The notes under the pieces: model-generated
Told to the model about the DNA's origin: nothing
Seen by the model: the letters and a program-made list of their open reading frames with translations, nothing else
Databases searched by the model: none
Shown: positions 5,959 to 22,490 of the stretch, piece after piece
Layout of the letters: each line of letters begins with the position of its first letter
Position numbering within the stretch: the stretch's first letter is position 1
Translations under genes and position numbers: made by a program
From: a virus
Length of the DNA stretch: 27,258 bases
IMG/VR virus record: IMGVR_UViG_3300030116_002299
Location: 17,550 to 44,807 of that record
Strand: one strand, 5' to 3'

Positions 5959-6110
5959 TACTTGCCCTTTCTATATCTTCCGCCTTTTTTCTTATAACAT
6001 CTTACAAGCCATCCATTTGCATATGCAGACGGATATACTTTAAACTTTTTTTTAGCCTGTGATTTACAAGCAGCGTATAACTGTTTATCTATTGGAATAT
6101 TCTTAGCCAT
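5958..6110 (-). CDS. Tiny basic protein (50 aa) with YPSAYAN motif
   Basis: ATG at 6108-6110 and TAA at 5958-5960 give 50 residues: MAKNIPIDKQLYAACKSQAK, then KKFKVYPSAYANGWLVRCYK and a basic glycine tail ending RYRKGK. The VYPSAYANGWLV..YKK.GG segment recurs in small proteins of aquatic phages and larger viruses, as far as I recall. The stop overlaps the next gene's start by one base. The function is unknown. Confidence 0.7.
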   Translation of the reverse strand: MAKNIPIDKQLYAACKSQAKKKFKVYPSAYANGWLVRCYKKKGGRYRKGK

Positions 6111-6111
6111 C

Positions 6112-6213
6112 TTACTTCTTCTTTTTCTTTTTCTTACCTAATATTGCTTCTTGTAAAAATTTAGGTAATGTTTTTTGTTTTTTAGTTAAACCAACTTTCT
6201 TTTTTTTAGGCAT
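6112..6213 (-). CDS. Tiny lysine-rich protein (33 aa)
   Basis: ATG at 6211-6213 and TAA at 6112-6114 give 33 residues: MPKKKKVGLTKKQKTLPKFL, then QEAILGKKKKKKK. About half the residues are Lys, flanking a short amphipathic core (LPKFLQEAIL). It shares one base with the stop of the preceding gene and lies one base from the following start. Position, packing and start context support a gene despite the low complexity. Confidence 0.6.
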   Translation of the reverse strand: MPKKKKVGLTKKQKTLPKFLQEAILGKKKKKKK

Positions 6214-6362
6214 TATTTACCTCCATGCGTTTTCATTACAGGTAAGTTCATTGTCAATGAAGCTCCTTTATGTGGTTTATATCCACCTTTAGGGTTTTTC
6301 ATTAAAGACATTTTGTTACCCTTCTTCATAAAATGATATCCCTTTGGTGCTTTCACTTTCAT
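6213..6362 (-). CDS. Tiny basic protein (49 aa), KAPKGYHFMKKG type
   Basis: ATG at 6360-6362 and TAA at 6213-6215 give 49 residues: MKVKAPKGYHFMKKGNKMSL, then a Gly/Lys/Pro/His-rich tail ending PVMKTHGGK. It is rich in Met and His as well as Lys. Start and stop overlap the neighbours by a few bases. KAPKGYHxMKKG-like openings recur in aquatic phages, a recollection rather than a search result. The function is unknown. Confidence 0.65.
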   Translation of the reverse strand: MKVKAPKGYHFMKKGNKMSLMKNPKGGYKPHKGASLTMNLPVMKTHGGK

Positions 6363-16387: not shown

Positions 16388-16401
16388 TCAGTTAGTTAGT
16401 G

Positions 16402-16442
16402 AGTAGATAGATAATTAAGTTTGTCTATCTACTTGCTTTTTT
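16402..16442 (+). terminator. Rho-independent terminator
   Basis: AGTAGATAGA (16402-16411) pairs perfectly with TCTATCTACT (16424-16433) across a 12-base loop, and TTTTTT follows at 16437-16442. It lies 14 bases after the stop of the first rightward gene. The stem is AT-rich, so some read-through to the next genes is likely. Confidence 0.75.
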
Positions 16443-16701: not shown

Positions 16702-16820
16702 TGGAATATGAACTATTGATTATATTGCTAGGGTTCAGCATGCTACTGAATATAGTATTTATGTTAGTCAATGCAGAACATTTAGGCTACAAACGTGGTT
16801 TGAGAGATGGCAAAGAGTAA
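16701..16820 (+). CDS. Small single-pass membrane protein (39 aa)
   Basis: ATG at 16701 to TAA at 16820 gives 39 residues with one hydrophobic helix (about residues 4-24, LLIILLGFSMLLNIVFMLVN) and a short basic tail (YKRGLRDGKE). The ribosome binding site AAAGGAGAG lies inside the preceding gene, and the end overlaps the next start by 14 bases. Tight coupling supports a real gene. The role is unknown. Confidence 0.65.
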   Translation: MEYELLIILLGFSMLLNIVFMLVNAEHLGYKRGLRDGKE

Positions 16821-16998
16821 AAGCAAAGAGCAAAGTCCTATCATATATAAAGGTAGGGCTTTGACTCGTCAACAAATAAAACAACTATTCAAAGCAGGTA
16901 TAGTAATACCTGAAGTAGAACTAAGAAGGATAGAACTACTTGAAAAGATAGATGAAATAGAAGATAAGTTAATGGACTTATCAGAGAGATATAGATAG
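16807..16998 (+). CDS. Small unknown protein with C-terminal coiled coil (63 aa)
   Basis: 63 residues: a basic start (MAKSKSKEQSPIIYKGRALT), a short helix (RQQIKQLFKAGIVIP) and a charged coiled-coil-like helix (ELRRIELLEKIDEIEDKLMD). It begins within the preceding membrane protein gene. It is the last gene before the structured non-coding stretch. Confidence 0.65.
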   Translation: MAKSKSKEQSPIIYKGRALTRQQIKQLFKAGIVIPEVELRRIELLEKIDEIEDKLMDLSERYR

Positions 16999-17003
16999 AT
17001 TTG

Positions 17004-17223
17004 AAGTATGTTTATATGCGTGGTGAATAATGTGACACTGACATAAACCACCTTGAGTCAAGAGCGTGCAAGAAATACACGCTTGTAGTTAGGCAATGGC
17101 CAAATGGCTGAGCAAACCTATGACATATCAAGATATTACTAACAGTGAAAACGCACGTGTAATTCGTGAGTAATATTGTAGGGGGATAGCTTCCCAATGC
17201 GTAGTCCTACTATAAACATACTT
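17004..17223 (+). ncRNA. Structured non-coding RNA candidate 1 (~220 nt)
   Basis: AAGTATGTTTATA (17004-17016) is perfectly complementary to TATAAACATACTT (17211-17223), so a 13-bp stem closes a 220-base unit with no plausible gene. Inside are GTGGT/ACCAC (17020-17024/17047-17051), AGCGTG/CACGCT (17063-17068/17078-17083), ATATTACT/AGTAATAT (17133-17140/17169-17176) with CACG/CGTG nested (17154-17157/17165-17168), and GTAGG/CCTAC (17178-17182/17206-17210). The last abuts the closing stem, as for coaxial stacking. It has no tRNA-like T-arm. The class is not recognised. Confidence 0.7.
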
Positions 17224-17231
17224 TAAAAGAT

Positions 17232-17479
17232 TTAGATAGATAAAAATAGAATGTTTTATAGAGCAAACGAAGGTACATATGTGGGATAATATGTTTAGCT
17301 AACATACCTAGTAGAGTATTTCATGGTAAGTACACCCATTAGCACTTACGATACTGTATGTAGATCCAGAATACTTATCATAAAACAAGAACACTGTCTC
17401 AAGAGAGTAAGTTCTATACAACATCTGGAATGTCAGATGACAAGTAGAGCTGGTGCATCCGTGGCTTTTATCTATCTAA
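17232..17479 (+). ncRNA. Structured non-coding RNA candidate 2 (~248 nt)
   Basis: TTAGATAGATAAAA (17232-17245) pairs perfectly with TTTTATCTATCTAA (17466-17479), a 14-bp closing stem. Internal stems are TGTTTTAT/ATAAAACA (17252-17259/17380-17387), AGGT/ACCT around ACATAT/ATATGT (17275-17280/17289-17294), AGTAT/ATACT (17315-17319/17351-17355) around GTAAGT/ACTTAC (17326-17331/17344-17349), and CATCTG/CAGATG (17422-17427/17434-17439). It starts 8 bases after candidate 1 ends and has the same multi-branched plan. No known class is recognised. Confidence 0.7.
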
Positions 17480-17496
17480 TATAATTCGGTGGCTGA

Positions 17497-17560
17497 TGTG
17501 TGGTGAAAGAGATTGATATTCTTTCCTGAACAGCCCATTCAGTTCTTGAGTAACCACACA
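17497..17560 (+). ncRNA. Compact three-way-junction RNA element (64 nt)
   Basis: TGTGTGGT (17497-17504) pairs with ACCACACA (17553-17560). Immediately inside, with no linker, come GAAAGA/TCTTTC (17505-17510/17520-17525) and then CTGAA/TTCAG (17526-17530/17538-17542), followed by a 10-base unpaired strand. It lies 26 bases before the next ATG, so it may be a leader element, the third part of the RNA array, or a processing signal. Confidence 0.6.
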
Positions 17561-17585
17561 CGCTTAACAAATGAAAGGATAAATA

Positions 17586-17993
17586 ATGAGTGATGTAAAT
17601 ATAAAAACAGCCTTGTATCAATACAGGGAAGATACTGGATATACGATAGAAGATTTATTTCAACATCCAGATATTGATTTTGACATAGATGTAAATGATA
17701 TAGATCATATAGAATTATCATACAATAGATATAGCCACAATGAATGTTGGGCATACTTTCAAACTCGTAGGAGTGATGAAGAGATAGCACAAGATCAAGC
17801 GTTTGGCTTGCCAATGCATAGTCATAATTGGTATGCTGGTATGCGTCTAGATGTAAATATATTACGAGAAATTATTAACTTGGAAAGAAGTTCAATACCA
17901 TATAGATTATATGTAAAGTTTGCAAGAAAGTATATGCATATTAAACTTGAAAGGAAAGATAATGAAGACGGAAGTAATACAACCACATCCTGA
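17586..17993 (+). CDS. Unknown acidic protein (135 aa)
   Basis: 135 residues. The N-terminal half is acidic (YREDTGYTIEDLFQHPDIDF, then DIDVNDIDHIELSY), the middle is aromatic and His-rich (NECWAYFQTRR, LPMHSHNWYAGMR), and the C-terminal part is basic (LYVKFARKYMHIKLERK). The ribosome binding site ATGAAAGGATAA precedes the ATG. It is the first gene after the RNA elements and leads the run of genes into the ubiquitin-like cassette. No family is recognised. Confidence 0.65.
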   Translation: MSDVNIKTALYQYREDTGYTIEDLFQHPDIDFDIDVNDIDHIELSYNRYSHNECWAYFQTRRSDEEIAQDQAFGLPMHSHNWYAGMRLDVNILREIINLERSSIPYRLYVKFARKYMHIKLERKDNEDGSNTTTS

Positions 17994-18861: not shown

Positions 18862-18873
18862 CTAATACAATAT

Positions 18874-18898
18874 GGGGGGTGACAATATGTTGCCCCTC
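18874..18898 (+). promoter_or_regulatory. Strong hairpin between Ubl and E2 genes
   Basis: GGGGGGTGACA (18874-18884) pairs with TGTTGCCCCTC (18888-18898) through 11 pairs, three of them G-U, around a 3-base loop. It lies between the Ubl stop and the ribosome binding site AATGAAAGGAAAGG of the E2-like gene. With no T-run it is not a simple terminator. It could lower downstream expression or define an mRNA end, so that the modifier is made in excess. Confidence 0.7.
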
Positions 18899-18919
18899 AA
18901 TGAAAGGAAAGGAAATAAT

Positions 18920-20755
18920 ATGTGGATTAAAGAAGATATTGAACAACTTAATATCGATATTGATTTACTATCTCAAGAACTAATACTTGGTCCAAGTAAT
19001 ATGGTAAACAAAAAGATTGCAGCACTGAACAGAAGGTGGATTACAAACACTTATGTTAGTGGCAATAGGTCTTACCTAGAACCACTTGAACCATTACGAT
19101 TCACTAAGAAGTATCGTTGGTCACCTGGCTACAAAGACATAGTTAAACAAGTAACAGTAGAAAGACTATTGCAACTTGAAAAGCCTGGTACATTGTCAAC
19201 GATGAGAAGTAGAATGAATAATCAAGAATGGAATATGAAATACTTTTGGGAAGATCTGATGGCTATTGAAGACCTGATGAAAGAACTCAGAAGTAGAAAA
19301 GCAAGTACAGATGATGATATGACATCAGCAAAGAACAACTTGAATAATGTGATTACAACACTACTAAAGAAAGTTGAAGACGCAAAAGTTCTATTCGATT
19401 CATATCCAAATATGGAATATCTATTTAGATTTATTTACAAAGATCCAGATAGATACGATCCAGAAACACAAGATAGAATGCAGTTTGATGAAAGTCAAAT
19501 GTCAGCATTGAAACTCTTGACTGGTCAGATTGAGTTGTCTTTTAAGTTTGAAAATCCTACAATGGAAGTTCATACAACAGATAATACATTTGCAAAAGAC
19601 TATGAAGGAAGTAAATCGTATGGTACAATACAGTTCAAGAAACCTGTATACCTGAACTTTAGATTACCTTTGTTTGAATTGTTTCAAGCATTGTATACAT
19701 CTGACTTAGAATCTGTAACTGAAAGTGAGATATATGGTAGATTGTCACACGATAGTTTGATGACTAAAAGAAACTTTCTATCAATATATGGGTTCGGTGA
19801 TTTATTGAATAACAGATATTCATTTAATAACAATTCAGTTAGAGGTTGGTTTGATGATGGAAATATAAGACATCCATACATTAATCATCGTGATAATCGT
19901 GAACAAGATTCAGTTGATTGTTTTGATGTATGGCAAGTTCCAGATACAAGTGTTTGTTTAGGTAACATGCAAAACGATATGTTGAATGCATTTGTTCAAA
20001 TGGATTTTATCCAGTTACTTACACTGATACAACAATGGAATAAGTATTGTATGTACAATACAAACCCACTAAACAATATATCATATTCATTTGATAGATT
20101 TATTAGTGCAGATGATTTCAGTGAAGATATGTTTACAGATCATGTGAACTTTCAATTTGATACATTGCATCGTCAATCTATGATAGATATTGGTTTCAAT
20201 CCTAATGAACTTGATATCAAAACAACATATCAAGATAGTAGTTGGGACAGAGGTGGTGCATTCTGTTACACTAATGCATTTGGTTATGATCAGATTGGTC
20301 GTGAAGATGGAGTACATTTTGGTATTGATATGACAAGTAGAGATTATCGTGCACATATAAACTCTGTTAGATATTATCTTGATAGATATGATAATCCAGA
20401 TGGTGAATATATATATGATGATATAATCACAGCAGAAGATGTAGCAACATACGAATCAATTAAGATTGCATTGATGCAAGAGTGGATTGATTGTCTTGAA
20501 AGTAATAACTGTATTACAAGTAAGTATGGTAAAGCATATGAAGTAAAACAGATTCTAGATAAAATCAATAATGTAGAAATGGAATCAGAAACAATAGAAC
20601 CAGTGGAAGAAGATGATGATGATGGTTGGGAACCAGTTGTCAATCCACATGCAGACTTACCATTTGGTAGCGATGAAACTATCGTAGCAAGTGAGTTTGG
20701 AACTGCAGAAGAAATACAATCAGCAATGGAACAACAAATGATGGAGGATATGTAG
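18920..20755 (+). CDS. Large E2-like ubiquitin-conjugating protein
   Basis: 611 residues from the ATG at 18920, which follows AAAGGAAAGGAAAT; an in-frame ATG at 18872 lies in the hairpin and lacks such a site. Residues 318-348 carry an E2/UBC-type signature: HPYI (318-321), then DTSVCLGN with C346 (codon 19955-19957) as the likely thioester cysteine, then a long helix FVQMDFIQLLTLIQQW, as in HPN...G.ICLG active sites. Strands before it (IELSFKFENPTMEVH, YGTIQFKKPVYLNFRLP) fit the E2 sheet. The N-terminal 190 and C-terminal 230 residues are not from a recognised family; the C-terminus has an acidic run (PVEEDDDDGWEP). Typical E2s are about 150-200 residues, so the large flanks may hold ligase or target-binding functions. 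It carries the Ubl from E1 to substrate. Confidence 0.78.
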   Translation: MWIKEDIEQLNIDIDLLSQELILGPSNMVNKKIAALNRRWITNTYVSGNRSYLEPLEPLRFTKKYRWSPGYKDIVKQVTVERLLQLEKPGTLSTMRSRMNNQEWNMKYFWEDLMAIEDLMKELRSRKASTDDDMTSAKNNLNNVITTLLKKVEDAKVLFDSYPNMEYLFRFIYKDPDRYDPETQDRMQFDESQMSALKLLTGQIELSFKFENPTMEVHTTDNTFAKDYEGSKSYGTIQFKKPVYLNFRLPLFELFQALYTSDLESVTESEIYGRLSHDSLMTKRNFLSIYGFGDLLNNRYSFNNNSVRGWFDDGNIRHPYINHRDNREQDSVDCFDVWQVPDTSVCLGNMQNDMLNAFVQMDFIQLLTLIQQWNKYCMYNTNPLNNISYSFDRFISADDFSEDMFTDHVNFQFDTLHRQSMIDIGFNPNELDIKTTYQDSSWDRGGAFCYTNAFGYDQIGREDGVHFGIDMTSRDYRAHINSVRYYLDRYDNPDGEYIYDDIITAEDVATYESIKIALMQEWIDCLESNNCITSKYGKAYEVKQILDKINNVEMESETIEPVEEDDDDGWEPVVNPHADLPFGSDETIVASEFGTAEEIQSAMEQQMMEDM

Positions 20756-20756
20756 T

Positions 20757-21620
20757 ATGAGTAAGTTCGTAATGTCTAATGAAGATTGGACAACACTAAT
20801 GCAGTATGCCAAATATGCATACGATGAACATAAATCAGAGATAGGTGGATACATGGTTGTTAAATATGTAGACAAACAGTTTGTATTTTCTGAGCCAGTT
20901 ATACTTCAACAAGAAATAACAGCTAGCAATACAGACATCACAACAGAAGCACTAGGTAAATACTTTACTGAAACAGAAATCAAATATGGTGGTGAACCGT
21001 ATTGGTTGTGCTGGTGGCATAGTCACCATACAATGGATGTATTTTGGTCGGGAACAGATAAGACAGCAATAGAACAATCTGTTAATGACAACTATGCATT
21101 TTCATTGGTAATCAATCTGAAACAAGAACAGATACTTAGAATCAGTGATTGGAAAACTGGTACACAAACAGATACAAAAGTTAAAATACTTGGTAAAGAA
21201 TTTGAAATACCACAAAGTATTAAAGATGAAGTAGAAAGTTTGTGCACTAAACCTACACTTGTAAGAACTAATACTGGTTGGTATGGTCAACATTATTCTA
21301 AAAAGATAAGTAAAGAACAATTAACAATGTGGCAAGATGAACTAGATGATGAAAGAGTAAATCTTGAAGCAGACATTGATAACATATTGCAAGACTATCT
21401 GATAGATAATGACTACCCAACTGCAAGAAAACGATTTGGAACTTTGAATCGTAAACTTGGACAAAGTAAAAGTGAACTAAGAGTAATCAAACTTGAACAA
21501 GATGAGTTGGATACAGTAATAAATTATGCATTAGCAGAACAATATATCTATGCTAAAGGCACAGAGCCTGACAAAGCAGAGATGATTGCTGATGCATCAT
21601 TTGAAAGGAGTTTTAAATGA
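20757..21620 (+). CDS. JAB/JAMM-family metalloprotease (deubiquitinase-like)
   Basis: 287 residues. The N-terminal 130 residues form a JAB1/MPN+ domain with the full zinc motif: E28 in SEIGGYMV, then WWHSHHTMDVFWSGTD giving H88, H90, S98 and D101 (HxH-x7-S-x2-D). Such enzymes hydrolyse the isopeptide or peptide bond after the Gly-Gly of ubiquitin-like proteins. The C-terminal 150 residues are helical and charged (QDELDDERVNLEADIDNILQ, FGTLNRKLGQSKSELRVIKL), possibly a coiled-coil docking segment. It starts one base after the E2 stop and overlaps the E1 gene by 4 bases. Because the Ubl is encoded already mature, removal of conjugates is a likelier role than precursor processing. Confidence 0.9.
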   Translation: MSKFVMSNEDWTTLMQYAKYAYDEHKSEIGGYMVVKYVDKQFVFSEPVILQQEITASNTDITTEALGKYFTETEIKYGGEPYWLCWWHSHHTMDVFWSGTDKTAIEQSVNDNYAFSLVINLKQEQILRISDWKTGTQTDTKVKILGKEFEIPQSIKDEVESLCTKPTLVRTNTGWYGQHYSKKISKEQLTMWQDELDDERVNLEADIDNILQDYLIDNDYPTARKRFGTLNRKLGQSKSELRVIKLEQDELDTVINYALAEQYIYAKGTEPDKAEMIADASFERSFK

Positions 21621-22267
21621 ACGAGAGATATGCAGGCTTAGTAAATAACTTTGATAATTATGCATATCATTTCCTAGGTTGCGGTGCTATTGGTAGTGCC
21701 GCAGCTGTAACTATGGTTAAGATGGGTGCTAAATGTATTCACTTGTATGATATGGATAAAGTAGAAAGACCCAATGTTGGTGTGTCAGTATACGATACAA
21801 ACGATATCAATAAAGATAAAGTATCAGCATTGAAAGATAGATTGCTTCTAATAGATCCATATCTAGAAGTACATACACATCATGGTATGTTTGAACAATA
21901 CAAACCAGAAGATAACAATGTAGTTATACTAGGTTTTGATTCAATGGAATCTAGACTATATGCAGTAGAACAAATATTGAAACATAAGAAACCAGATGTT
22001 TTGATTGATGGTCGAATGGGTGCTGAGCATTATCAACAGTACACATTTAAAAATCCAACACTATCACAATACAAGAAGACTTGGTATTCAGATAGTGAAG
22101 GTGATGACGAACCTTGCAATGCAAAAGCAACTAGTTATTGTAGTAGTATGACTGGTAGTTTTATATGCAACAATGTCAAAAAGATATTGAAGGACGAGCC
22201 ATATTTGAATAATTTTTCTTTTAATTTTCAAACAATGGCACTAAATTCAAATGGTTTCGTAAGTTAA
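21617..22267 (+). CDS. E1-like (ThiF/MoeB superfamily) Ubl-activating enzyme
   Basis: 216 residues, a Rossmann adenylation domain. GCGAIGS (21-27) binds ATP; LYDMDKVERPNVG (43-55) has the Asp pair D45/D47 and N53; NKDKV supplies K66/K68; VVILGFDSMESR (102-113) has D108 and R113. C167 in DDEPCNAKATSYCSS is the best candidate for the Ubl thioester cysteine. In the usual SNLNRQ motif the Arg-Gln is replaced by Val56-Ser57, so the canonical arginine finger appears missing or moved. The length matches minimal ThiF-type E1s without extra domains. It has a strong AAAGGAG site and is coupled to the JAB gene. It should adenylate the Ubl Gly99 and pass it to C346 of the E2. Confidence 0.88.
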   Translation: MNERYAGLVNNFDNYAYHFLGCGAIGSAAAVTMVKMGAKCIHLYDMDKVERPNVGVSVYDTNDINKDKVSALKDRLLLIDPYLEVHTHHGMFEQYKPEDNNVVILGFDSMESRLYAVEQILKHKKPDVLIDGRMGAEHYQQYTFKNPTLSQYKKTWYSDSEGDDEPCNAKATSYCSSMTGSFICNNVKKILKDEPYLNNFSFNFQTMALNSNGFVS

Positions 22268-22278
22268 ATTAAACTGGT

Positions 22279-22332
22279 GTGGGGGGCTATATACCTCTTC
22301 TATATCCACAGTATCTCATCGCAGTCCCCCAC
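22279..22332 (+). promoter_or_regulatory. GC-rich hairpin closing the conjugation cassette
   Basis: GTGGGGGGCT (22279-22288) pairs with AGTCCCCCAC (22323-22332), ten pairs with one G-U, around a 34-base loop. The loop holds a small ATATA/TATAT hairpin. It lies directly after the E1 stop and before the ATGAAAGG ribosome binding site of the next gene. No T-run follows, as with the hairpin before the E2 gene. Confidence 0.7.
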
Positions 22333-22355
22333 CTAGACAAATGAAAGGAAAACAA

Positions 22356-22490
22356 ATGTACTATGACGTAGATTTAGATGTACTTTATCTTAAATGTTTT
22401 ACAACAATCGAACTAATATTCTTTATTGTTTGTATACTTGTATTGTATGAAGCAATAAAATATATTGTAAGGTTAAAAAGAAATGGCTAA
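22356..22490 (+). CDS. Small single-pass membrane protein (44 aa)
   Basis: ATG at 22356 to TAA at 22490 gives 44 residues with an acidic start (MYYDVDLDVLYLKC), one hydrophobic helix (about 17-36, IELIFFIVCILVLYEAIKYI) and a basic tail (VRLKRNG). An in-frame ATG at 22341 is part of the ATGAAAGG ribosome site, so the later start is preferred. It overlaps the next gene by 8 bases. The function is unknown. Confidence 0.6.
   Translation: MYYDVDLDVLYLKCFTTIELIFFIVCILVLYEAIKYIVRLKRNG

Follow-up and report, generated by a model that had tools for sequence, protein, structure and literature searches.

Structured noncoding RNAs of phages are already known. The early mRNA of phage T7 carries RNase III processing sites, short hairpins located between the early genes. 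The put RNA of phage HK022 is approximately 70 nt in length, forms two stem-loops and lies downstream of the early promoters (PMC9378689), while GOLLD and ROOL are very large ornate RNAs (PMC12286853). We describe here a site in the early operon of an uncultured phage that has some likeness to each. As at the T7 sites, stem structures are found between early genes of what would be one long early transcript, but here the stems are long-range and enclose 50-220 nt with conserved scaffolds. One of the elements, unit 3, resembles HK022 put, a processive antitermination element that suppresses termination through contact with RNA polymerase, in being a short structured RNA of a phage early operon with a presumed action in cis; it differs in sequence, in having a single main stem plus a variable apical domain, and in its location at a stop codon between two early genes. 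GOLLD and ROOL, which often lie near tRNA genes, are likewise noncoding RNAs of unknown function carried on phages, although in contrast to these the units described here are short, independent modules of 60-250 nt, with no covariance-model match and no tRNA island. As an analogy only, integron gene cassettes also combine a fixed slot with exchanged and reordered modules; in the present case, however, the modules are noncoding RNAs and the exchange looks like short-repeat recombination. No description of a swappable closed-RNA slot was found in the open-access literature searched and, as far as we have checked, such a slot is new.

The window, i.e. the whole stretch of DNA that was analysed, comprises 27,258 nt (positions 17,550-44,807 of IMG/VR record IMGVR_UViG_3300030116_002299) and forms the right-hand 27 kb of a 44.8-kb record. 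A comparison by DNA similarity with an annotated phage collection gave no real or close match to the window. Among the late genes are those for a P22-like portal and for a large terminase subunit, and the phage is therefore classed, from these gene assignments, as podovirus-like. The RNA slot sits in the plus-strand early operon, in a gap of 587 nt between a stop codon at 16998 and the next ATG at 17586, which belongs to a gene with a ribosome site. An earlier, sequence-only reading had called this stretch gene-free, and indeed no credible gene is present: the remaining ORFs can be set aside as short, as devoid of a ribosome site or as encoded on the minus strand. The gap is instead filled by three closed units in a row, unrelated to one another in sequence. 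The features are as follows.

16807..16998, + strand: gene for a small basic protein of 63 aa; in relatives, homologues lie directly 5' of unit 3
16987..17000, + strand: direct repeat copy 1, AGATATAGATAGAT, 14 nt; overlaps the stop codon of the small gene
17000..17227, + strand: unit 1, closed RNA; arms 17000-17016 and 17211-17227, 17 bp including one G-U
17228..17241, + strand: direct repeat copy 2, AGATTTAGATAGAT; overlaps the 5' arm of unit 2
17232..17479, + strand: unit 2, closed RNA; arms 17232-17245 and 17466-17479, 14 bp, perfect
17483..17573, + strand: unit 3; full match to model R1
17485..17496, + strand: conserved 5' box of unit 3, TTCGGTGGCTGA
17497..17504, + strand: 5' arm of unit 3 stem P1; 8 bp, perfect, with the 3' arm
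17505..17507, + strand: GAA adjoining P1 of unit 3; makes up a motif with AGTA at 17549-17552
17508..17548, + strand: hypervariable apical domain of unit 3; approximately 10-110 nt in relatives
17549..17552, + strand: AGTA of unit 3, partner of GAA
17553..17560, + strand: 3' arm of unit 3 stem P1
17586..17993, + strand: next early gene, 135 aa, function unknown; homologues follow the slot in many relatives, different genes in some

Structure prediction for the 63-aa protein gives two helices at low confidence (pLDDT 70). A promoter scan returned sites no commoner than in shuffled sequence, and a single terminator-like site was located at 16398-16437, upstream of the RNA array. ARAGORN finds no tRNA or tmRNA in the window and no tRNA gene is present in 25 relatives, in agreement with the sequence-only reading, which had seen no tRNA features. 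A type III toxin-antitoxin RNA, in which identical RNA repeats stand in tandem upstream of the gene for an endoribonuclease toxin, was considered and rejected, as the units are not repeats of each other and neither PHROG nor Pfam gives a match for the 135-aa protein encoded downstream. Elsewhere in the window, further stretches without ORFs of at least 60 aa occur at 5959-6343 and 22268-22482. The early region also contains, at 18872-22267, a trio of genes conserved in most of the phage group, consisting of a 627-aa protein of unknown family together with, at 20757-21620, a weak JAB-domain protein and, at 21617-22267, a ThiF/E1-like one, a combination that suggests a phage-encoded ubiquitin-like modification system.

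As had been proposed, a stem closes each of the three units, with 17 bp (one of them G-U) in unit 1 and perfect runs of 14 and 8 bp in units 2 and 3. The 587-nt stretch was compared with 300 dinucleotide shuffles, counting Watson-Crick pairs only and allowing 100-300 nt between arms. The real stretch yields runs of 14 and 13 bp; a 14-bp run was reached in 1 of the 300 shuffles, and one of 14 together with a second of at least 11 in none. The two long closing stems are thus beyond chance, as the sequence-only reading had argued from their length and spacing. Among all long-range stems of the 44.8-kb record, the one that closes unit 1 scores highest, at 17.5; the one that closes unit 2 reaches 16.0, and four other places score 15.0-16.0. 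The same reading had described the units as multi-branched inside, and for units 1 and 2 this finds no support. While the whole units fold with z-scores of -3.81 (unit 1) and -1.98 (unit 2) relative to shuffles, the interiors without the closing stem fold like shuffled sequence (z = -0.83 and +0.24, respectively). It is therefore the stems that are special, as opposed to ornate interiors, and we rejected interior folding energy as a sign of complex structure.

Searches with blastn and nhmmer found no relatives of unit 1, which is bracketed by a 14-nt direct repeat with copies 93% identical. Relatives of unit 2 were found in contigs L045/L140, L147, L137 (two) and L008, all of which keep its ends and vary in the middle, and the unit 2 ends TTAGATAGATAA occur at different sites in distant phages. 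The arms of the unit 2 stem are conserved in sequence across these relatives, hence the pairing is hardly tested by them. Covariation of the closing stem, the check put forward in the sequence-only reading, supports unit 3.

Unit 3 is the best-supported part of the array. Its 8-bp stem is unremarkable in one sequence; what is remarkable is its conservation across relatives, with unit 3 present in at least 16 distinct related phages. In an alignment of 11 members, 98.9% of P1 cells are paired and four pairs have changed on both sides. The covariation score of 0.545 compares with 0.184 in shuffles, none of 500 reaching the observed value, and slid partners score at most 0.134. Because the members of this alignment were chosen partly by complementarity, a search with the 5' box, made without that filter, serves as an unbiased check. 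The box sequence CGGTGGCT was found 18 times in early regions, 17 of these at the slot. An exact 8-bp partner accompanies 16 of the 17 slot occurrences, as against 125 of 900 random starts (14%), and in the 17th (L129) the partner extends over 7 bp. Model R1 matches further contigs, and all strong, above-background matches are in the early-gene orientation.

The placement of unit 3 is precise. At its start, TTCGGTGGCTGA overlaps or abuts the codon that terminates the small basic gene, and where the slot holds no other insert, as in the compact phages, its end falls 5-18 nt before the next ATG. Unit 3 is the sole occupant of a slot of approximately 65-105 nt in L010, L016, L005, L006, L018, L024, L025 and L004. 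The upstream gene belongs to one family that is kept, while the families of downstream genes differ among phages, which ties unit 3 to the upstream gene. A role in stop-codon readthrough was rejected, as phages differ in the reading frame that follows the stop. On the apical side of P1, most members carry the GAA/AGTA motif pair, whose form is that of a bulged-G (sarcin-ricin/loop E) module, an identity that we infer from the motif. The pair is missing and the apex different in L018, L017, L004 and L015, and in L005 it is altered (AATA). These comparisons establish unit 3 as an RNA element with a stem kept through compensatory change and a hypervariable apical domain. At gathering scores, Rfam gives no match in the window or in 16 relatives, and relaxed searches (E up to 5) return nothing relevant for the 587-nt stretch or the sister contig described below. 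At least one new RNA family unlisted in Rfam, unit 3, is hence present at this locus, and several further units are candidates.

A close relative allows for inspection of how the slot changes. The sister contig L002 is 97.6-98.6% identical to the window on both sides of the slot. Within the slot, unit 3 is kept and units 1 and 2 are absent; in their place is a closed unit of 130 nt, uA (L002 3215-3344, TTAGATAGACA...TGTCTATCTAA), with the outer nine base pairs of its stem the same as those of unit 2 in the window. An additional unit of approximately 230 nt, uB, lies 3' of unit 3. With the contents of the slot replaced and the flanks approximately 98% identical, it follows that the slot has changed wholesale and the flanking genes hardly at all. 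The order of units is uA-u3-uB in L002 and u3-uB-uA in L019 and L127 (u3 denoting unit 3). Between L002 and the latter two, uB is 91-94% identical along approximately 230 nt, while the downstream genes align at approximately 60%. Other relatives present further arrangements: L008 has a unit 2 relative 5' of unit 3, L014 a different closed unit 3' of it, L034 a second unit 3 in tandem, and L015 and L017 carry another unit, uD. The number, identity and order of closed RNAs in the slot thus vary among relatives, which demonstrates a turnover of units between close relatives, by gain, loss, exchange and changes of order. Short direct repeats flank uB in L002 (16 nt, 94%) and an insert in L130 is flanked by identical direct repeats of 16 nt; insertion or loss of units by recombination between short repeats would explain this pattern. 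We read the gap as a place where RNA modules, and not gene cassettes, are exchanged.

To what extent closed units occur across the phage group was assessed in 78 distinct early regions, obtained from 80 of 221 terminase matches and 80 of 328 matches to the ThiF-like protein. Across relatives, uA retains its closing stem and a 3' hairpin, with one domain variable. In the case of uD the core is near-identical and the closing stems have been exchanged, 8 of 12 pairs being changed on both sides with 100% pairing retained. The claim that the array consists of structured noncoding RNAs is supported by covariation in unit 3 and, strongly, in the closing stem of this other slot family of relatives. 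The 414 kb of early sequence contain 55 closed stems with a score of at least 16, compared with 9 and 16 in two shuffles, and a comparison of early and late sequence gave 27 in 173 kb and 5 in 241 kb, respectively. In noncoding closed stems G-U outnumbers A-C by 64 to 27, whereas the coding control has 25 G-U and 33 A-C, counts that are not independent, the phages being related. The excess of G-U over A-C points to early-strand RNA as opposed to DNA inverted repeats, and the closed units as a class bear the signature of early-strand RNA.

Several other elements were observed in relatives and at the far end of the record. L173, L174, L179, L210 and L225 share a closed RNA family at one fixed site; its core is TTACGGCTAAAACCACCA...AAGCGTGGTC, and its variable domain ranges from a few to more than 60 nt. 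The left end of the virus record from which the window is taken (L228) contains at 93-220 a closed stem of approximately 128 nt, TTTTGCCCTACT...AGTAGGGCAAAG. A closed unit with a perfect tRNA T-arm, GGGTTCGAATCCC, occurs in L055 (early region 1499-1591), L072 and L147 (early region 1973-2061); ARAGORN calls no tRNA in the L055 unit, and the element is a possible tRNA mimic. In another branch, the gene-free region is filled by a highly conserved noncoding stretch of approximately 400 nt with marker ACAAGAGTGGAGACACTATCAAACTTG, found in L016 (approximately 2.05-2.45 kb upstream of terL) and also in L018, L059, L067, L070, L073, L074 and L079. The members tested have no Rfam match, and the stretch looks like a large new structured RNA. 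Several RNA units open with mini-ORFs made up of a ribosome site, ATG, one codon and a stop (ATGATTTAA, ATGTTTTAG; ATGAGATAA elsewhere), at sites including L002 3428-3457, L128 early region 1620 and L130 early region 1749. On the early strand, 45 of 1105 ATGs with a ribosome site belong to such mini-ORFs, as against 3 of 222 on the other strand. The mini-ORFs resemble the bar minigenes of phage lambda.

The explanation we favour, by a modest degree of confidence, is that of a variable RNA slot in a podovirus-like phage early operon, in which unit 3 probably acts in cis and units 1 and 2 are probably freed to act in trans. The units would be transcribed within the early polycistronic RNA, where each long closing helix could allow its unit to fold on its own, insulated from the remainder of the transcript. 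The closing helix is probably cut by an RNase III-type double-strand ribonuclease, which would release small RNAs, and freed RNAs of the unit 1 and 2 type would then target the host in trans as the phage takes it over. Such a role would account for the rapid turnover of units as well as for scaffolds that are conserved but bear variable domains. Unit 3 is more likely to act in cis, controlling processing or translation at the gene junction, because its position, after the same small gene and before the next ribosome site, is fixed; the small basic 63-aa protein perhaps binds it. Tentatively, the site may go further and constitute an RNA-cassette locus, with interchangeable closed RNAs, each a conserved scaffold with a hypervariable domain, supplying small RNAs with which the phage counters or rewires its host in an arms race.

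In the main rival account every unit is a cis-acting portion of the early mRNA and serves as a processing site, a 5' stabiliser, an insulator between genes or a put-like antitermination element, with an interior that is spacer and hence variable. The units do lie between genes, often just 5' of a ribosome site, their interiors are not unusually stable, and put RNAs are themselves early-operon RNAs of approximately 70 nt with two stem-loops (PMC9378689). Spacer would not, however, be expected to contain the scaffolds conserved within the stems of unit 2, uA, uB and uD, nor to remain more than 90% identical along approximately 230 nt between diverged flanks, as uB does, and we consider this account rather unlikely, if a serious contender. 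It is improbable that the units are small MITE-like mobile DNA, the inverted ends of which mimic RNA stems and the direct repeats of which are target duplications. Inverted ends, variable interiors, flanking direct repeats and the recurrence of the same unit 2 ends at different sites in distant phages are all consistent with such elements. On the other hand, above-background matches to the unit 3 model occur in the early-gene orientation only, the excess of G-U over A-C indicates selection on the RNA of one strand, the closing stems of unit 3 and uD covary with the end sequences not kept, and the units fit exactly into the interval from stop codon to ribosome site.

It is very improbable that a single large ornate RNA, of the GOLLD/ROOL type, contains the three units as its domains. 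The phage origin, the total of 587 nt and the succession of several closed domains would fit such an RNA, and the sequence-only reading saw a resemblance in plan, though not in sequence. This resemblance is not supported: no Rfam match is obtained even when relaxed, no tRNA cluster or island lies nearby, and the units are separate modules, each of which can be exchanged, missing or in another order in relatives independently of the others. Chance or an assembly artefact has a negligible probability and is already refuted for the stems and unit 3, for although AT-rich sequence gives many weak stems, as the shuffle control confirms, none of the 300 shuffles matches both long stems, unit 3 is conserved in many separate contigs and the sister contig is independent.

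The variable RNA slot, with unit 3 probably acting in cis and units 1 and 2 probably in trans, remains the reading we prefer. Phage accessory loci are normally viewed as sites of protein-gene exchange, while the modules swapped here are RNAs, and the slot is found in a widespread group of uncultured phages. If the RNAs are agents of host takeover or anti-defence, an almost unexplored layer of phage biology would be opened. Even if they are cis elements, they represent new regulatory RNAs that are directly testable.
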